From contig NZ_WUAF01000002.1 in NCBI RefSeq assembly GCF_009800965.1, forward strand, positions 108,299 to 172,298: a DNA stretch of 64,000 nucleotides, given 5' to 3'. The position numbers were made by a program, and so were the translations under genes. The notes under the pieces are model-generated. The model saw only the letters and a program-made list of their open reading frames with translations, ran no database searches and had not been told where the DNA came from. Below are positions 52,317 to 62,109 of the stretch, piece by piece (the first letter of the stretch is position 1; each line of letters opens with the position of its first letter). This DNA is from Cognatazoarcus halotolerans. GTDB lineage: Bacteria; Pseudomonadota; Gammaproteobacteria; Burkholderiales; Rhodocyclaceae.

Positions 52317-52829
52317 TTAGCGTGTCGTGTCGCCATCCGTCGTGACGACGCGGGCGCTGGTCCGCGCCCGTTCGGCGATCCGTGCAAGCAGCGCCCTTGC
52401 GTCCCGGTCGCCGGGGGTGTCGGTGGCTGGCGTGCGATAGACCATTTTCACCCTGCCGGGCTGGCTTTTGAGCTCGTAGATCCCGATGCTCAGGGGGCAC
52501 AGGGCGATGTTGTCGGGGTTTTCCAGGGCCAGTCTCGCGGCGATGCGCACGCTGCAGAAGGCGAAGACTTCCGCGTTTCGGTAGATGTTGCCGTGATGAC
52601 CGAGATCGGCTTCGGTGCGCTCGAGCATCGCGCCGAAGCCACTCACCGACGAAACGAGCAGCCCCTCGTCCTCGATCGATTCGATGAGCGCTTCACGGGT
52701 GCGTGCATAGGTGCTTGGTGCGATCTCGAGCGAGGTCGGGCCAGCCGCGTGTGATGGTGGGGCGGCAACGCAGAAGAGGCTCGCGGTCATGGCAAGGAGC
52801 CATGCCCCCGTGTTCAGGTAAGGACCCAT
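52317..52829 (-). CDS. DUF302 periplasmic protein at the end of the PQQ operon
   Basis: 170-residue protein with an N-terminal signal peptide ('LLAMTASLFCVAAPPSHA') followed by a DUF302-like region ('TREALIESIEDEGLLVSSVS', 'EVFAFCSVRIAARLALEN'). It overlaps the end of pqqD by 16 bp, so it is likely co-transcribed. Function unknown; the family is seen in many Proteobacteria. A link to PQQ is only an inference from position. Confidence 0.75.
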   Translation of the reverse strand: MGPYLNTGAWLLAMTASLFCVAAPPSHAAGPTSLEIAPSTYARTREALIESIEDEGLLVSSVSGFGAMLERTEADLGHHGNIYRNAEVFAFCSVRIAARLALENPDNIALCPLSIGIYELKSQPGRVKMVYRTPATDTPGDRDARALLARIAERARTSARVVTTDGDTTR

Positions 52830-53071
52830 CCCTTGGATTCCGCTTCTGAAAAGAAGCGGTATACACCTTCGGCAATGACGCCGTCCGGCGCGTCGAACTT
52901 TTGCTGCAAGGCGTCGATGATCTCGGGCGCACTGCGCCTGCCGTCGCACAGCGCGAGGATTTCACCCGCGCTGCCGTTGAGCTTGACCACGCCTTCGGGA
53001 AACAGCAGTAAATGGGCCTGCTGGGCGGGTTCCCAGCGCAGGATGAAGCGGGGGGCGATCGAGGGAGTCAT
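52814..53071 (-). CDS. pqqD: PqqD, RiPP recognition element of PQQ synthesis
   Basis: Small peptide-binding chaperone of 85 residues that holds the precursor PqqA and presents it to PqqE. The family pattern 'LLLFPEGVVKLNGSAGEIL' plus ALCDG and 'FFSEAESKGWV' near the end are present. It is preceded by pqqA (43 bp) and followed by the DUF302 gene (16-bp overlap). In the usual order pqqD is next to pqqC or pqqE. Confidence 0.93.
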   Translation of the reverse strand: MTPSIAPRFILRWEPAQQAHLLLFPEGVVKLNGSAGEILALCDGRRSAPEIIDALQQKFDAPDGVIAEGVYRFFSEAESKGWVLT

Positions 53072-53114
53072 GACGAGCCTCCTGGCGATGCGGGGCCTGG
53101 CCCCGCACCCGGGT

Positions 53115-53189
53115 TCAGCGGACGTAGACGTAGGCGGTGACTTCGAAGCCGAGGCGGATTTCCTGATAGGCGGGGGTTTCCCAGGTCAT
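53115..53189 (-). CDS. pqqA: PqqA, PQQ precursor peptide
   Basis: 24-residue ribosomal peptide from which PQQ is made: PqqE joins Glu16 and Tyr20, both present in 'GFEVTAYVYVR' (Glu16, Tyr20). The N-terminal 'MTWETPAYQEIRLG' is typical. It has an AAAGGAG ribosome-binding site. It lies between pqqC and pqqD, not at the operon head, about 110 bp after the pqqC stop. That gap contains a 7-bp inverted repeat (53212-53218 with 53223-53229). Confidence 0.93.
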   Translation of the reverse strand: MTWETPAYQEIRLGFEVTAYVYVR

Positions 53190-53298
53190 GATGCGCTCCT
53201 TTGGTGGTGGGCGACGACGGCTGTCGTCGGTGAACACAGTGTCGATCATCCCGGCCCGGCCTGCCGTCGAAATAAGCCGTGAGCCGGGCTCGCGAAAT

Positions 53299-54063
53299 TC
53301 ATGATTCCAGCGCGGAGGGTCGGTCGCGGCGCATCGGCAGGTAATCGCCGAAGCCGTCGATGTCCACCCGACAATAGTTCAGCAGCATGGCGTCGAGCAT
53401 GCTCCACAGGACGTCGAGCTTGAACTGCAGGATGTCGGTCGCCCGGCGCTGTTCGTCGCGCGTGCGAAAGTGCGTGAGCGTGATCTCCAGCCCGTGTTCG
53501 ACATCGCGGCGGGCCTCGGAGAGCCGGCGCCGGAAGTAGCCGTAGCCTTCCGTGTCGACCCACGGATAGTGCGTCGGCCAGTTGTCGAGGCGCGATTGAT
53601 GAATGGCCGGGGCGAACAGCTCGGTGAGCGACGCGGCCGCGGCTTCCTGCCAGGGTCGCTGCCGGGCAAAGTTTACATAGGCATCGACCGCAAAGCGCAC
53701 GCCTGGCAGCACATGGCGCTCCGACACGACTTCGTCGCGGCTCAGCCCGACGGCCTCGCCGAGGCGGATCCATGCCTCGATGCCGCCTGGCTCGCCGTCG
53801 CGCCCGTCGTGGTCGATGATGCGCTGGACCCAGTGGCGGCGGATCTCGCGGTCGGGACAGTTGGCGAGGATCGCGGCATCCTTGATCGGGATGTTGAGCT
53901 GGTAGTAGTAGCGGTTCGCAACCCAGCCCTTCAGCTGGCGGCGGTCCAGCCGGCCCTGGTGCATCATCTGCTGGAAGGGGTGGTGGATGTGATAGCGGTC
54001 ACCCATGCTGCGCAGGGCGGCCTCGAACAGTTCGGTCGAAAGCGGTGGGGCGTGACGGTCCAT
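53299..54063 (-). CDS. pqqC: PqqC, pyrroloquinoline-quinone synthase
   Basis: Cofactorless oxidase of 254 residues performing the final ring closure and oxidation to PQQ. Visible are '[20 protein letters not shown]', '[19 protein letters not shown]' and '[18 protein letters not shown]'. It follows pqqB by 12 bp. Confidence 0.96.
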
Positions 54064-54075
54064 GGCGGATGTCTC

Positions 54076-54993
54076 CTAGAGTTCGATCTTCATGCCGTCG
54101 AAGGCCACTTCGATGTCCGCGTTCTGCAGCATCCGTCGCTCATGGCTGGCCGAATCGAGTATCGGGTTGGTGTTGTTGATGTGGATGAGGATGCGGCGCG
54201 CGCTCGCGTAGGGCGACAGGCGGGCGATCATGCCGTCGCCGCCGGATTGCGGCAGGTGGCCGATTTCCCTGGCGGTCTTGCGCGAGAGGCCGAGGCGGAT
54301 CATCTCGTCGTCGGTCCAGAAGGTGCCGTCCACCATGATGCAGTCGGCCTGGGCCAGGAACTCGTCGAGGTGCGGTTCGATCGCGCCGAGGCCGGGCGCA
54401 TAGAACAGCTTTCGGCTGCTGCGCAGATCCTCGACCAGCAGGCCGATATTGTCCTCGCGGTGAGCGCGGCCGCGACGCGGCGAGAACGGCGGTGGCTGGC
54501 TCGCCAGCGCCACCGGCGTGAAGCGCAGGTCCGGCAATTCGGGCAGTGAAAATGGCGTTGGCGGGTCGGCGCGCAGCGGGTGCCAGTCGACGCCGCAGAA
54601 GTGCTGCAGCACGCCGAAAACCGGATTGCCGGTAGTGAGGTCCTGGTGCACCGGTTCGGTGCACCACACCGGTAGCTGCGAGGCGCGCTCGCGCAGCATG
54701 AACAGGCCGGTGGTGTGATCGATCTGCGCGTCCACAAGGATCACGGCGCTGATGCCGCTGTCGCGCAACATGCGGGCGGGCTGCAGTTCCGGGTGCTGTT
54801 TGAGCTGCGCGAGAATATCCGGCGAGGCATTGATGAGTGCCCAATGCACGCCGTCCGCGCTGATCGCGATCGACGACTGGGTGCGGGCGCGGAAGCGCGG
54901 GTCGCCCGCGCGTACGCCCGCGCAGTTGTGGCAGTTGCAGTTCCATTGCGGAAAGCCGCCGCCGGCGGCCGAGCCGAGTACGAGGATCTTCAT
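54076..54993 (-). CDS. pqqB: PqqB, metallo-hydrolase-fold hydroxylase of PQQ synthesis
   Basis: 305-residue metallo-beta-lactamase-fold protein starting 'MKILVLGSAAGGGFPQWNCN', with metal-site residues in 'VILVDAQIDHTTGLF' and a Cys pair in 'CNCHNCAGVRAG'. It oxidises the tyrosine ring of the crosslinked intermediate. The start codon overlaps the pqqE stop (ATGA at 54990-54993). Confidence 0.95.
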   Translation of the reverse strand: MKILVLGSAAGGGFPQWNCNCHNCAGVRAGDPRFRARTQSSIAISADGVHWALINASPDILAQLKQHPELQPARMLRDSGISAVILVDAQIDHTTGLFMLRERASQLPVWCTEPVHQDLTTGNPVFGVLQHFCGVDWHPLRADPPTPFSLPELPDLRFTPVALASQPPPFSPRRGRAHREDNIGLLVEDLRSSRKLFYAPGLGAIEPHLDEFLAQADCIMVDGTFWTDDEMIRLGLSRKTAREIGHLPQSGGDGMIARLSPYASARRILIHINNTNPILDSASHERRMLQNADIEVAFDGMKIEL

Positions 54994-56135
54994 TGCACCT
55001 CCTCGGTCGCTTCGGCGATCACCGCAGTGGCTGCCCGCTTGACCAGCGGCATGTGGAAATGGATCGGCTGGCCCGCCCGCCGGGTGATCTCAGCGACCTC
55101 CCGGTGGTCGGGCGAGCGGCTGCAGGCGGGGTCGGTGGCGGCGGCATCGCCGGTAAGCAGAAAGGCCTGACAGCGGCAGCCGCCGAAGTCCTTCTCCTTG
55201 TCCGGGCATTCGCGGCAGGTCGGCGACATCCAGTCGAAACCGCGAAAACGCTTGAACAGCGGCGACTCGTTCCAGATCCAGTCGAGGCTGTGCATGCGCA
55301 CCGAGGGGAACTCGAGTCCGGGGAGCACCCGCGCCTCGACACAGGGCATCGGAATACCATCGGGTGCGATCGTCAGGTGGATGTTGCCCCAGCCGTTCAT
55401 GCATGCCTTTGGGCGGCCTTCGTAATAGTCGGGGATCACGAAATAGAGGGTCATGCCGTGTTCGCCGCGCTTGCCCGCCTCGCGCCAGCGCTCGACCACC
55501 TGTTCGGCTTCGCGCAGCGCTTCGAGCGAGGGCATCAGCTCGGCGCGGTTCATCAGGGCCCAGTTGTAGTACTGGATGTTGGCAAGCTCCACGTACTCGA
55601 TACCGAGCTCGGCCGCCCAGCGCAGCAGCGCATCGATCTCGCCGAGGTTGTGACGGAAGAGCGGTACGTTGAGCACCATCGGCAGACCGCGTGCCTTGAC
55701 CATGCGGGCGGCTTCGAGCTTGAGCGCATGGGCGCGGGCATCGACGAGGCGGTCGGTGAGCGTTGCGGTCGAGGCCTGCAGCGAGAGCTGCACCTGCCGC
55801 AGGCCGGCTGCGATCAGTGCGTCGAGACGCGCTTCGGTGAGCCCCACGCCAGAGGTGATGAGGTTGGTGTAGAAGCCGAGCTTGTCGGCATGCGCGACAA
55901 GCACTTCGAGATCGTCACGCAGCAGCGGTTCGCCACCCGAAAGACCGAGCTGCACGGCGCCGAGCGCGCGGGCTTCGGTGAGGACGCGCTTCCACTCGTC
56001 GGTGTCGAGCTCGTTGGCGGTGTAAGCCGCATAGTCGAGCGGGTTGCTGCACCAGCTGCATTTGAGCGGGCAGCGGTAGGTCAGCTCTGCGGTCAGCCAC
56101 ATCGGCAGGCCGCGGGGAATGGAGAGGTCGGACAT
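54990..56135 (-). CDS. pqqE: PqqE, radical SAM enzyme of PQQ synthesis
   Basis: Radical SAM/SPASM enzyme of 381 residues that forms the Glu-Tyr carbon bond in PqqA. The SAM cluster motif is Cys22-x3-Cys26-x2-Cys29 in 'CPLKCSWC'; a C-terminal SPASM cysteine group is seen in 'SPTCRECPDKEKDFGGCRC'. It is the first gene of the operon, unlike the usual pqqA-first order. AAGGAG precedes the ATG at 56135. A GC-rich stem lies in its leader. Confidence 0.96.
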   Translation of the reverse strand: MSDLSIPRGLPMWLTAELTYRCPLKCSWCSNPLDYAAYTANELDTDEWKRVLTEARALGAVQLGLSGGEPLLRDDLEVLVAHADKLGFYTNLITSGVGLTEARLDALIAAGLRQVQLSLQASTATLTDRLVDARAHALKLEAARMVKARGLPMVLNVPLFRHNLGEIDALLRWAAELGIEYVELANIQYYNWALMNRAELMPSLEALREAEQVVERWREAGKRGEHGMTLYFVIPDYYEGRPKACMNGWGNIHLTIAPDGIPMPCVEARVLPGLEFPSVRMHSLDWIWNESPLFKRFRGFDWMSPTCRECPDKEKDFGGCRCQAFLLTGDAAATDPACSRSPDHREVAEITRRAGQPIHFHMPLVKRAATAVIAEATEEVQ

Positions 56136-56170
56136 CGCGTCACTCCTTGATCGTGCGCTCATCGTGCCGG

Positions 56171-56341: not shown

Positions 56342-57511
56342 TCAGAAGAAGATGACACCGCCGAGCGAGATGGTGCGGGCCTTGAAGCTGTCGCCATACA
56401 GGTCCGCGCCGCTTTTCTTTTCCTGGTTGTATTCGCCAACCAGGGTGATGTACTTGTTGAGGGTGTGATAGACGCCAAGCGTCACGCCACGACTCTTGTT
56501 GGTTTCGGTGAGCGTGCCGCTCTTGTCCTTGTTCTCGCCATAGTTCAGGCCGACCTTGGTCTTGCCGAACTTGTAGGTGCCCTGCAGGAAGTAGCCCTGG
56601 CTGTCGGTTTCGCCGAACGGTGAGAAGAACTGTGCGCCGACCGTCGAAAGACCGAGACCCTTGCCGTCGAAGCCGTAGGCGACTGCCTCGAAGTTGCCGA
56701 AGCCGACCTTGGCGCCGAGTTCGAAGCCGCGCGCATTGAAGGTCGGCGTGTTGGCCACGCCGCCGTCGGTGCTCTGGTGTACCAGGCCGCCCCACACCGA
56801 GCCCGGCGTCGCGCCTTTCCAGTCATAGCTGGCGATGGCCTGGAAGCCCGGCGTGCTGGTTTCGCCGCTGCCGATGAAATCCTTCGGCTGGAAGATGCCG
56901 GCCGATGCGGAGAAGCCGTTCATGTCCGGCGTGGTGTAGGTGATCTGCGGCTGGAAACCGGTGTACATGTAGCCGTGGCCGATCATCCCGAAGGTGGTGT
57001 TGAACGGGATCGACGCGTTGGTGGCGCCGCCCAGGCCGAGCAGGGTCATGTCGGAGAGGATGATCTTCTGCGCGAACAGGCCGATGTCACGGCCGAACTT
57101 GACCGTCCCCATGCTGTCGTTGCCGAACTGGAAGTACAGGTTGCGCACGTCGATCTGCGAGAACGGGCTGGTGGAACCGGCGGTGGAGCCTGCGCCCGGC
57201 GCGGTCGGCAGGCCGACCACGGTCGACGAATCGTTGATGCCCGGAGCAAGGCCGACGTGGGCCTTGATGTCCATGCCTTCGGTCTTGGTGGTGAACACGA
57301 AGTTGATCCAGCCTGGCAGCAGGCCGTTGGTAAGCGCCGAGTTGTCGGTCTTTGCGCCATTGTCATTGACCGAACGGAAAGAGTAGAAGCCGTTGATGGT
57401 GCCGTTGATGTCCAGGGTGGCATCGCCCTGGGTGAAGCTTACCGCCTGGGCGCTGCCGGCTGCCGAAACGAAGGCCAGGCTCACAAGCTTGGCAATGGTG
57501 GATCTCTTCAT
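56342..57511 (-). CDS. Outer-membrane porin
   Basis: Gram-negative general porin (porin_4 type), 389 residues. A signal peptide ('STIAKLVSLAFVSAAGSAQA') is followed by short amphipathic beta-strands, and the protein ends in 'SLGGVIFF', with the terminal Phe used for outer-membrane insertion. Solute specificity cannot be told. The open frame extends upstream of the signal peptide to 57649, but the start at 57511 is set by it. Confidence 0.9.
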   Translation of the reverse strand: MKRSTIAKLVSLAFVSAAGSAQAVSFTQGDATLDINGTINGFYSFRSVNDNGAKTDNSALTNGLLPGWINFVFTTKTEGMDIKAHVGLAPGINDSSTVVGLPTAPGAGSTAGSTSPFSQIDVRNLYFQFGNDSMGTVKFGRDIGLFAQKIILSDMTLLGLGGATNASIPFNTTFGMIGHGYMYTGFQPQITYTTPDMNGFSASAGIFQPKDFIGSGETSTPGFQAIASYDWKGATPGSVWGGLVHQSTDGGVANTPTFNARGFELGAKVGFGNFEAVAYGFDGKGLGLSTVGAQFFSPFGETDSQGYFLQGTYKFGKTKVGLNYGENKDKSGTLTETNKSRGVTLGVYHTLNKYITLVGEYNQEKKSGADLYGDSFKARTISLGGVIFF

Positions 57512-57980: not shown

Positions 57981-58481
57981 ATGGAGCACAACTTTACGAC
58001 CGGGATCGTATGGACCGGTAATCGCGGCGAGGGCACGCGCAGCTATCGTGGCTATGACCGGACCTGGGACATCGCAGTGCCGGGAAAGGCGGTGGTGCAT
58101 TGTTCGAACGACCCGATGCTGGGCGGGGATCCGGCCAAGATGAATCCCGAGGACTTGCTTCTTTCGGCGCTCTCGGCCTGTCACATGCTCTGGTATCTGC
58201 ACTACGCGAGCGACGCGGGGATCGTCGTGCTCGCCTACCGGGACGAGCCGGTGGGTTATGGTGAGACCCTGCCGTCGGGAGCGGGCCGTTTCGTTTCGGC
58301 GGAACTCCGGCCGGAAATCACCGTCGGCGCCGGGACGGACATCGCCGCGGCCGAAAGGATTCACGGCCGGATACACGAGGTGTGCTTCATCGCCCGTTCG
58401 GTGAGTTTTCCCGTCTCGTACCGCGCCCGCTTCCACGTGGCCGACGACTCGGGGTCGGGCGACCGGCACGCACCCGGCTGA
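57981..58481 (+). CDS. OsmC family protein
   Basis: OsmC/Ohr-fold protein of 166 residues. The family's first Cys is in 'LLLSALSACHMLWYLHYA' and the second in 'HEVCFIARSVSFPV', the pair expected for a peroxidase. It could reduce organic hydroperoxides. It stands alone, divergent from the porin and convergent with the peptidase. Confidence 0.88.
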   Translation: MEHNFTTGIVWTGNRGEGTRSYRGYDRTWDIAVPGKAVVHCSNDPMLGGDPAKMNPEDLLLSALSACHMLWYLHYASDAGIVVLAYRDEPVGYGETLPSGAGRFVSAELRPEITVGAGTDIAAAERIHGRIHEVCFIARSVSFPVSYRARFHVADDSGSGDRHAPG

Positions 58482-58511
58482 AGCGTGAGGCGACGGCGCG
58501 AGCCTGGTGTT

Positions 58512-59399
58512 TCAGGACGTCAGCGCATCCAGCGCGGCGAGGCTTGCTGCCAGGATTTCCGGATCGAACTGCCCATGTCCGGCGCCCGGAATCTCCTGCA
58601 ATCGCAATGAAGGGCAGGCGCCGGCCAGCGCCCGTGCGGCGCCTGGTGGGCAGATCGGGTCGTTGTCACCTTGGACGATGATGCCCGGCAAGACATGCCG
58701 GGCGGCCGCCTCGAGCAGTGTCGCTGCACGCGGATAAGCGTGCCGCGCCAGATAGTGAAGCTGGAGCCGGGTCTTCGCGATTGCGCTGGCCTCCGGCGGC
58801 GCGTCGGCAATCGTCTCGCCCATCAGCGCCGCCTCATGGGCCAACCACCGGCGTGTGATCTCTGCGCGGACACTGGCGGGACCGGATTCGAAATCGTGCT
58901 GCAGGCGGCGGATGCAGTCGCGGGCCGCCTCGTTCTCGGTGCGGCCTTGAAAGTTCGCCAGATAGGCATCCAGTTCGCGATCGCCGCCGAGAAAGATCCC
59001 GCGCAGCAACAGTGCGCGCACCCGTTCCGGACGCGTGGCTGCGTAGGCCAGCGCCAGCAGGCTGCCCCACGAGCCGCCCCAGACCAGCCAGGCTTCGATG
59101 CCGAGGTGGACGCGAATCAGTTCGATGTCGGCCACCAGGTGTTCGGCGGAATTGGCCCGGATCTCGCCGGCCGGGCGGCTGCGGCCGCAGCCGCGCTGGT
59201 CGAAGAGGATGGCGCGGTGACGCCGTGGATCGAAAAGGCGGCGATGTCGGTCGGTGCACATGCTGCCCGGCCCACCGTGGAGAAAGATCACCGGGAAGCC
59301 GTCGCGCGGGCCGCAGTCCTCCACGTAGAGTTCGTGGCCGTCACCCGCCGCCAGCCGATGGACCGCGCGGGGCTCGGCGGGCGGATGAAGTCCGGCCAC
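58512..59399 (-). CDS. pip: Proline iminopeptidase (alpha/beta hydrolase)
   Basis: S33 prolyl aminopeptidase, 295 residues. The oxyanion-side motif 'VIFLHGGPGSMCTDRHRRLF', nucleophile Ser in 'WLVWGGSWGSLLALAYA', and catalytic His in 'EIPGAGHGQFDPE' are intact. It removes N-terminal Pro from peptides. It follows the TonB receptor by 17 bp, so is probably co-transcribed with it. Confidence 0.92.
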   Translation of the reverse strand: MAGLHPPAEPRAVHRLAAGDGHELYVEDCGPRDGFPVIFLHGGPGSMCTDRHRRLFDPRRHRAILFDQRGCGRSRPAGEIRANSAEHLVADIELIRVHLGIEAWLVWGGSWGSLLALAYAATRPERVRALLLRGIFLGGDRELDAYLANFQGRTENEAARDCIRRLQHDFESGPASVRAEITRRWLAHEAALMGETIADAPPEASAIAKTRLQLHYLARHAYPRAATLLEAAARHVLPGIIVQGDNDPICPPGAARALAGACPSLRLQEIPGAGHGQFDPEILAASLAALDALTS

Positions 59400-59416
59400 G
59401 GGGCGGGGACGCCGGC

Positions 59417-61558
59417 TCAGAAGGTGTAGCGCGCGCTCACCCCGGCGTAGGCGCTGAAGGCTGGGCCGGGTTCGTAGAACTTGCTGTTGCTGTCATTGAC
59501 GATGACCGAGCCGATGTACTTGCGATCGAACAGGTTGTCGAGCCGCAGCATCTCCTGGAACTGCCACGCGCCCTGCTTCTGGGTGGCGGCAACGCGCAGG
59601 TTGAAGAGGGTGTAGCTGGGCGCGGTCCGTGCATCGTTGCCGTCGTTCACGAACACGTGGCTGCGATACACCGTCTCGAGCGCGGTGGTGAGGCCCTGCA
59701 TGGGCTGCCAGGCGAGTTCGCCATAGATACTGGTCGCGGGGATGCCGGGCAGGCGCTTGCCTGCGCTGATCGCACCGCTGCTCTCGTCGTAGATGGCACG
59801 CATGTGGGTGAAGGCCAGCTTGCCGCGCCACTGGCGTGAAAATTCGCTGTCGACCGCCACCTCGACACCCTGACGCAGGGTCGAGGCGGCATTGGTGTAA
59901 TAGGTGCGTCCACCGGTGGCGCCTGCCGGCACGATTTCGTCTTCGGTGCTGATCTGGAACACCGCGGCATTGACGCGGGTGTAGTCGCTGACGAAAGCCT
60001 TTGCGCCAAGCTCGTACTGGGTGCTGGTCGAGGGTTTGAGTCCGAGGTTGAAGCCGGCGCCGCCCGCCGAATAGGCCATCTCGCCGAGCGTCGGCGTCTC
60101 GTAGCCCTTGCCCGCGCTGGCATAGAGGTTCAGTGCGGGACTGAGCTCGTAGGTCACACCCACGGCCGGCGTGGTCTTGCTGAAACTCACGCTGCCGCTG
60201 TCGTCGCCATTGACCAGGTATTTGTCGTCGACCTCGGTCTCGACATGGCTGTGGCGCAGGCCGGCCTGCAAGCCCCAGCTACCCCTTTTCCAGCTTGCCT
60301 GCAGATAGGGGTCGAGACTGGTGACCGTGTCGATCTCGTCGCGGCGCAGGTTGCCGCGTACGCCCAGCGCTGTCGGCGCGGTTGCCGGGCCGAGGAAGTT
60401 CTCGTAGCCCTGGCGGTCGTCCTCTGAGCGGTCGTAGTCGATGCCGCCGGTGAGTGTGAGTTCGCCGCCGGCCGCGGCCAGGGTTTGTATCCACCTTGCC
60501 GACATGCCGTGGAATTCACGGTCGAAGTCGATCACGCCCCCGGCCTGGCCGGGGCGCGTGGCAATGTTCTGCACGATCGCGGGAATCGACTGGTACTGCA
60601 GTACGCTGCGCTTGCCCGCATAGGCGGAGAATTGCAGTGTGCCGGCACCGATGCGGCGCTCGTAATTCATGCCGCCCTGTACGTTGTCGATGTTCTTGCG
60701 CACGTTGTAGTCGATGGCGGCACTTTCGACCGCACGCGGATCTCGCTGAAAAGTGGCCCAGGTCACGCCCTGCGGGTCCTGGGTGTCGGCCTGATGGAGC
60801 GTCGCGGCGATGAAGTTGAGCTTGCTGTCCGCATCCGGCTTGAGGGTGATCTTGGCAAAGCTCTGGTCACGACTGGCGGCGCTGTGGTCGCGATAGCCAT
60901 CGGTCTCGAAGCGCGAGCCATTCACCAGGAAGCCCACGCCGCCTTTTTCACCCTCGGCCTCGAGTTCGTACTTGGTGGTGCCCCACGAACCCCCGAGAAT
61001 TCCGGCCTTGATGCTGGGTGGGCCACTGCCGTCGCGCGAGAAGAGCTGAATCACGCCGCCCGAGCTGGCGCCATACACCGTGGAGAAGGGGCCGCGCAGT
61101 ACCTCGATGCGTTCGGCGGTGTCGAGGTTGAAGGTGGCCGCCTGACCCTGGCCGTCCGGCGTGCTGGCGGGAATGCCGTCGGTGACGAGCTTGATGCCGC
61201 GTACCCCGAAGGCGGCCCGGGCGCCGAATCCGCGCGAGGAGATCTGCAGGTCCTGGGCGTAGTTCTGGCGGTTCTGCACCACCAGGCCGGGCACGGCGGC
61301 GAGCGACTCGGATACGTTGACCTTGAGCTGTCCCTCGCTGATGCTGCGCTGGTCCACCACGTCGACCGAGAAAGGCAGCTCGAAACTCTGAGCTTCCACC
61401 CGGCTGCCCGTCACGACCACCGGTTTGAGCTGAAGATCGGCTTCGGCTGCACCCGCGGCGAAGCTGCCCATCGAGAGGGCGAGCGCGAGGCCGATGCTGA
61501 TCGGGCGACGTTGCGGGACGTCTGTGTTGGTCGTGCGGCGTGATGTGTGTGTGGACAT
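59417..61558 (-). CDS. TonB-dependent receptor, PqqU/YncD-like
   Basis: Outer-membrane receptor of 713 residues with a signal peptide, plug domain and 22-strand barrel ending in Phe. From memory of E. coli YncD (PqqU, the PQQ receptor), the plug ('SESLAAVPGLVVQNRQNYAQ' then DLQISSRGFG, 'DGIPASTPDGQGQ') and barrel segments ('YASAGKGYETPTL', 'FNLGLKPST', 'DNLFDRKYIGSVIVN') match closely. Combined with the nearby PQQ operon, PQQ uptake is the best call. An alternative is a siderophore receptor. Confidence 0.85.
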   Translation of the reverse strand: MSTHTSRRTTNTDVPQRRPISIGLALALSMGSFAAGAAEADLQLKPVVVTGSRVEAQSFELPFSVDVVDQRSISEGQLKVNVSESLAAVPGLVVQNRQNYAQDLQISSRGFGARAAFGVRGIKLVTDGIPASTPDGQGQAATFNLDTAERIEVLRGPFSTVYGASSGGVIQLFSRDGSGPPSIKAGILGGSWGTTKYELEAEGEKGGVGFLVNGSRFETDGYRDHSAASRDQSFAKITLKPDADSKLNFIAATLHQADTQDPQGVTWATFQRDPRAVESAAIDYNVRKNIDNVQGGMNYERRIGAGTLQFSAYAGKRSVLQYQSIPAIVQNIATRPGQAGGVIDFDREFHGMSARWIQTLAAAGGELTLTGGIDYDRSEDDRQGYENFLGPATAPTALGVRGNLRRDEIDTVTSLDPYLQASWKRGSWGLQAGLRHSHVETEVDDKYLVNGDDSGSVSFSKTTPAVGVTYELSPALNLYASAGKGYETPTLGEMAYSAGGAGFNLGLKPSTSTQYELGAKAFVSDYTRVNAAVFQISTEDEIVPAGATGGRTYYTNAASTLRQGVEVAVDSEFSRQWRGKLAFTHMRAIYDESSGAISAGKRLPGIPATSIYGELAWQPMQGLTTALETVYRSHVFVNDGNDARTAPSYTLFNLRVAATQKQGAWQFQEMLRLDNLFDRKYIGSVIVNDSNSKFYEPGPAFSAYAGVSARYTF

Positions 61559-61674
61559 GGCTTACCTGTTGTGATTTGTGCGCCGGCGCGGGGTCGCGGG
61601 CGAGCCTGGGGCAAGTCTAAGCCAGGGCAGTCGGGTGCAGGCTCGTCGCAGTCTGTGTAGCGGGCTCAAGAAAA

Positions 61675-62049
61675 TCATGAGATCTCGCCGCAATCGTCGT
61701 CACCGCTTGCTTCGAGGAAGGCCTTGAGCGCGACCGCGTTGTTGCACTCGGCATCGCGGGCGGCAAACAGCAGGGTGACGGGGCCGCTGGCAACTGCTTC
61801 GCGGAGCTCCGCCAGCTCTGAATGCGAGCTGCGTAGCTCCGCGAGATAGTCCCGCCGGAAATCGTCCCAGCGAGCACGATCGTGCGCGAACCACTTGCGC
61901 AGGGTGTCCGATGGGGCAAGCTCACGCAGCCAGAGGTCGACCGCAGCGTCCGCCTTGCGAATTCCCCGCGGCCACAGACGATCGACCAGCACCCGCAGAC
62001 CATCGTCCGCTGCGGGTGCTTCATAGATGCGTTTGGTCCTGATCTCCAT
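61675..62049 (-). CDS. DUF488 family protein
   Basis: 124-residue soluble protein of the DUF488 family, with 'RVLVDRLWPRGIRK' and 'LWLRELAPSDTLRKWFAHD' plus Cys in the C-terminal half. Function unknown. It is the gene upstream of the TonB receptor, on the same strand, 116 bp away. Confidence 0.88.
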   Translation of the reverse strand: MEIRTKRIYEAPAADDGLRVLVDRLWPRGIRKADAAVDLWLRELAPSDTLRKWFAHDRARWDDFRRDYLAELRSSHSELAELREAVASGPVTLLFAARDAECNNAVALKAFLEASGDDDCGEIS

Positions 62050-62109
62050 TTTCCGGCCTCCCTTCGCCTCAGTCTGGCAGCCGCACCATCGTTCCGCCAG
62101 ACCGCCGTG

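Follow-up and report, generated by a model that had tools for sequence, protein, structure and literature searches.

A PqqU-type TonB-dependent receptor encoded close to a complete pqqABCDE set in Cognatazoarcus halotolerans

The receptor gene and its neighborhood

In the window, i.e., the whole 64,000-nucleotide stretch of C. halotolerans DNA analyzed here, a gene for a TonB-dependent outer-membrane receptor lies on the same strand as a full set of pqq genes (Table 1). It is one uninterrupted frame of 713 codons with an ATG start, exactly as the earlier note had delimited it, and a Shine–Dalgarno-like AGGTAAG is found just 5′ of the start codon. The protein begins with a signal peptide of approximately residues 1–38 (RRPISIGLALALSMGSFAAGA), and on direct reading of the sequence the segment KPVVVTGS at residues 45–52 resembles a TonB box. 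A plug domain (Pfam Plug PF07715, 1.2e-17, approximately residues 60–168), a transmembrane beta barrel (Pfam TonB_dep_Rec PF00593, 1.9e-48) and the C-terminal aromatic residue F713 give the protein all hallmarks of a TonB-dependent receptor. It is the only receptor of the PqqU group in the genome (4.97 Mb, 110 contigs), and its next homologue there reaches E = 2e-15. We found no regulatory element for the receptor gene: Rfam searches at gathering score yielded neither a cobalamin riboswitch nor any other family nearby, a sigma-70 promoter scan of positions 58400–62100 was empty, and a terminator scan of the same interval gave one terminator-like site, which is below the chance number.

Read along the minus strand, the gene order is DUF488, pqqU, hydrolase, the plus-strand OsmC gene, porin, pqqE, pqqB, pqqC, pqqA, pqqD and DUF302. 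All five pqq genes score above their curated NCBIfam cut-offs. A pqq operon at a distance of 3.3 kb had been claimed before, and the measurements agree with this: the start codon of pqqE at 56162 is 3255 bases away from position 59417, pqqE, pqqB, pqqC and pqqD exceed their equivalog cut-offs, and pqqA lies between pqqC and pqqD. The PqqA peptide has 24 residues and the C terminus EVTAYVYVR, in which E-V-T-A-Y contains the PQQ-forming Glu and Tyr. PqqF (TIGR02110) was not found in the genome, where the best match was a generic M16 peptidase with 57.9 bits versus a cut-off of 320. A single operon from pqqU to pqqD was rejected because the OsmC gene stands between them on the opposite strand; the association of the receptor with the pqq genes is looser than an operon.

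Table 1. Features of the receptor and pqq locus, and homologues of the hydrolase
Feature	Position	Strand	Assignment and remarks
pqqU-like gene	59417..61558	−	TonB-dependent outer-membrane receptor, 713 aa
Alpha/beta hydrolase, prolyl aminopeptidase type (S33)	58512..59399	−	TIGR01249, 210 bits, below cut-off of 259.75
OsmC-family gene	57981..58481	+	Pfam; divides the pqqU-hydrolase pair from the porin and pqq genes
Gram-negative porin (Porin_4)	56342..57511	−	Pfam; recurrent near pqqU in Rhodocyclales
pqqE (radical SAM/SPASM)	54990..56162	−	TIGR02109, 471 bits (cut-off 381); 4-base overlap with pqqB
pqqB	54076..54993	−	TIGR02108, 417 bits (cut-off 245)
pqqC	53299..54063	−	TIGR02111, 369 bits (cut-off 240)
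pqqA, precursor peptide MTWETPAYQEIRLGFEVTAYVYVR	53115..53189	−	TIGR02107, 42.2 bits (cut-off 20)
pqqD, chaperone	52814..53071	−	TIGR03859, 92 bits (cut-off 46)
Secreted DUF302 protein	52317..52829	−	Just past pqqD; the Met preceding the signal peptide is taken as the inferred start
Hydrolase homologues	G001 C5:53644-54528; G002 C44:11895-12797; G004 C213:40761-41663; G029 C47:8150-9052		
Further hydrolase homologues	G031, G033, G054, G058, L052, L082, L088		

Several features of this neighborhood recur in relatives. The position of pqqA between pqqC and pqqD, rather than at the head of the operon, is shared with locus L082, which has the same pqqE-B-C-A-D order, and with L094 for the pqqB-C-A-D stretch found there. 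In Rhodocyclales, relatives of the DUF302 protein occur near pqqU, sometimes adjoining it, in L046, L047, L050, L051, L055, L082, L089, L096, L102 and L120; a literature search on DUF302 and PQQ returned nothing relevant. The porin, with 61–77% identity among Rhodocyclales, is likewise found near pqqU in L046, L047, L051, L053, L055, L088, L102, G004 and G035.

Family assignment and PQQ-contact residues

Against all solved structures, phmmer matched the receptor to E. coli PqqU over residues 47–709 (6v81, 5e-148; 9c4o, 1e-147). The next solved chain was a heme receptor with 2.4e-10 in the plug region only, and heme, siderophore and colicin receptors in general scored 2e-10 or worse. The resemblance to YncD that the earlier note had pointed out is hence far above chance. 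The receptor has the same length and fold as E. coli PqqU (YncD; NP_415968.1), with 41% identity over 686 aligned residues, and the end-to-end alignment that had been proposed as a check preserves the PQQ-contact residues. Its top NCBIfam family is TonB_rec_PqqU (NF041535) with 646 bits, below the equivalog cut-off of 1200 bits, which is a naming threshold and not a biochemical feature. This cut-off looks set for close kin of the E. coli and enterobacterial proteins; all 22 aligned relatives match the same model.

The structure of PqqU with PQQ has been solved and its contacts were tested by mutation, so that contact residues and mutant phenotypes of the E. coli protein are available; Y/F/W99, R304 and R365 (E. 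coli numbering) form the family signature (Munder et al. 2025, PMC12124388). Nine of the 11 contacts are identical in the receptor, namely Q84, Q121, K274, R304, Q308, Q310, R365, Y481 and R536. The two that differ from E. coli are Y99, which is replaced by the Phe that the signature permits, and N477, which is Gly. The signature positions 99, 304 and 365 correspond to F117, R317 and R382, and the less conserved but important K274 and R536 are kept as K288 and R551. Conservation of these positions is also high among 104 PqqU-like relatives, where R304 and R365 are present in all, F99 in 103, K274 in 99 and R536 in 103. Ten weaker TonB receptors served as controls, including the others of this genome where covered; they do not keep the contact set, apart from the divergent homologue L041, which retains F99, R304, R365 and R536 and has Glu at K274.

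The predicted fold points in the same direction. The AlphaFold2 model, built with 35 homologues (mean pLDDT 80, pTM 0.82), was poor at residues 1–55 and 107–118, and the latter stretch contains the Y99 equivalent, so that the model is uninformative on pocket detail there. Its residues 57–713 align to the PqqU barrel structure. The best structural match was PqqU with bound PQQ (9c4o, Z 42.8, rmsd 1.9 over 638 residues), followed by 6v81 (Z 42.0), and the first other receptor was FoxA at Z 35.9.

It is therefore extremely improbable that the gene encodes an ordinary receptor for siderophores, heme or B12 and came to lie near the pqq genes by chance. The models for these classes (TIGR01783, TIGR01785 and TIGR01779) do match the receptor weakly, all under their cut-offs, and for BtuB in particular TIGR01779 gives 75 bits versus a cut-off of 599.7. 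Moreover, Rfam searches upstream and nearby detected neither a cobalamin riboswitch nor another family. A better match to siderophore or B12 receptors had been named beforehand as the finding that would overturn the assignment; instead, the phmmer E-values favor PqqU by about 137 orders of magnitude and the fold comparison by about 7 Z units. Profile scores, phmmer and fold comparison thus all reject these readings. A second alternative is a PqqU-family receptor whose substrate has shifted to a related compound, for instance PQQ complexed with a metal, an adduct of PQQ or some other small quinone or carboxylate. Global identity alone does not settle substrate specificity, and PQQ–metal co-transport was proposed for some homologues (Munder et al., PMC12124388). 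The altered N477 contact would fit such a shift. Nevertheless, we regard it as very unlikely: the variants proposed for metal co-transport carry Glu at K274, where the present receptor retains Lys, all other charged contacts are kept, and genomic ties to pqq and quinoprotein genes recur.

Linkage of pqqU and pqq genes among relatives

A strong PqqU and a PqqE were both present in 14 genomes of relatives, this one counted, and in four of these (G000, G014, G021 and G052) the two genes are at most 10 kb apart, whereas chance would bring about such linkage in roughly 0.4% per genome. Among 80 named loci, pqq genes occur within 10 kb of pqqU in L052, L054, L082, L088 and L094, and a quinoprotein alcohol dehydrogenase gene lies near pqqU in 22. 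Betaproteobacteria thus tend to keep the genes for PqqU, PQQ synthesis and PQQ-using enzymes together. Synteny of pqqU and pqq genes has been described in four Burkholderiales genomes (Munder et al. 2025, PMC12124388); the linkage is hence not new in kind. In those four genomes, as in the five loci and in G014, G021 and G052, all from Rhodocyclales or Burkholderiales, the receptor gene lies near the same genes as here, and our receptor is a largely ordinary new member in an already known sort of neighborhood. The arrangements differ in detail. L082 carries pqqE-B-C-A-D-pqqU on one strand with a gap of 66 bp between pqqD and pqqU, and L094 is similar; pqqU thus directly follows pqqD in both, whereas the porin, the plus-strand OsmC gene and the hydrolase intervene before pqqE in C. 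halotolerans. In the assembly of Thauera propionica, pqqU (L052:10001-12010) is interrupted by an in-frame stop codon close to its 3′ part.

Could a genuine PqqU have come to lie beside the pqq genes by chance, with no functional meaning in their proximity? The opposite-strand OsmC gene between the two groups would agree with this, as would the lack of pqq genes within 10 kb of pqqU in the closest PqqU relatives, L046 and L047. Furthermore, linked and unlinked receptors are interspersed on the PqqU tree, where no fewer than seven changes are needed, so that linkage to pqq was gained or lost repeatedly. Against coincidence stand the four linked genomes among 14, far more than expected, and the prolyl-aminopeptidase-like neighbor common to pqqU and pqq genes, which ties the two together. 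On balance we doubt that the proximity is fortuitous, while granting this explanation a substantial share of the probability.

Joint descent of PqqU and the pqq cluster is unsupported, because the two have different nearest kin. The receptor is closest to the Denitromonas type, which has no pqq genes nearby, and the pqq cluster is most like that of the Dechloromonas-type locus L082. By sequence, the nearest receptor is PqqU of Denitromonas iodatirespirans (L047, 67–69% identity), which unlike the present one has no pqq genes within 10 kb. Compared with L082, pqqE is 70% and pqqA 88% identical, but PqqU just 55%. The pqq cluster (52814-56162) also departs from that of its own genus: its pqqE is 54–55% identical to same-genus genomes and 69–70% to the Dechloromonas/G021 type. 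This likeness suggests, as far as sequence comparison can tell, that the pqq cluster was replaced or acquired. A plasmid origin was rejected, as no near match covers the region and the best matches are short pieces of pqq genes or receptor in large replicons.

Proposed PQQ recapture, the adjoining hydrolase and candidate client enzymes

The binding cavity of PqqU for PQQ lies between the plug and loops 7–8, and TonB pulls on the plug to let PQQ pass into the periplasm. We are highly confident that the receptor described here is PqqU, the outer-membrane PQQ transporter, and we infer that PQQ would be its substrate in this organism as well. The 646-bit NCBIfam score, the Gly at N477, the modest identity of 41% to E. 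coli PqqU and the empty regulatory searches weigh on the other side. The receptor would capture free PQQ with high affinity between plug and extracellular loops, TonB, powered by the proton motive force, would pull the plug, and PQQ entering the periplasm would load PQQ-dependent alcohol dehydrogenases. With 330 Da, PQQ is able to diffuse out across the outer membrane, and a producer would hence gain from its recapture. E. coli makes no PQQ, whereas C. halotolerans has the complete pqqABCDE set close to the receptor gene. Given these genes in the same genome, a twofold role is likely, in which the receptor would recapture the cell's own PQQ leaking via porins and scavenge that of neighbors. 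The bacterium thus probably both makes and takes up PQQ, and the earlier note's suggestion that it makes and recovers the cofactor is backed at the gene level by the complete pqqABCDE together with PqqU. PQQ producers with PqqU are a minority, accounting for 23% of PqqU holders (Munder et al. 2025, PMC12124388). The recognition of PqqU as a receptor specific for PQQ is recent, and a producer in which this gene lies near a full pqq set is a convenient system for asking whether producers recapture leaked cofactor of their own.

The part of the locus most worth following is the hydrolase gene. It follows pqqU on the same strand after a gap of 17 bp, is probably co-transcribed with it and has an intact nucleophile motif, GGSWGS. 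Of 17 genomes with pqqE, 10 have a prolyl-aminopeptidase-like hydrolase no farther than about 6 kb from it. In a phylogenetic tree the pqq-linked hydrolases fall outside a clade of 16 unlinked prolyl aminopeptidases; a second, canonical prolyl aminopeptidase copy of this genome, on C20, falls within that clade. In the publications consulted, the peptidases tied to PQQ belong to other families (PMC10531626, PMC12997753), and a literature search for prolyl aminopeptidase and PqqA found nothing. Judged from gene context and phylogeny, the hydrolase may trim PqqA and can be put forward as a concrete candidate for the peptidase that PQQ synthesis requires. We may speculate further that, in Betaproteobacteria devoid of PqqF, the non-canonical, pqq-linked lineages provide the missing peptidase that helps to release cross-linked Glu-Tyr from PqqA, although we consider this rather unlikely. 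If true, the pqqU-hydrolase pair would place the recapture of PQQ and its maturation on a single transcript.

Three candidate PQQ-dependent alcohol (quinoprotein) dehydrogenases are present in the genome as potential clients, two of them above the TIGR03075 cut-off. One candidate, on C88, exceeds the family cut-off and another, on C99, falls just under it. The third is PedH-like and located on the same contig as the receptor gene, about 31 kb beyond the window end, with W-D-F-D at the metal site, as is typical of lanthanide enzymes. In the interval L127:2788-9789 (G000:C33:197787-204788), outside the window, a TonB receptor and a TonB-like protein on the other strand lie about 3 kb from this PedH-like gene, and the three might possibly form a lanthanide uptake set.
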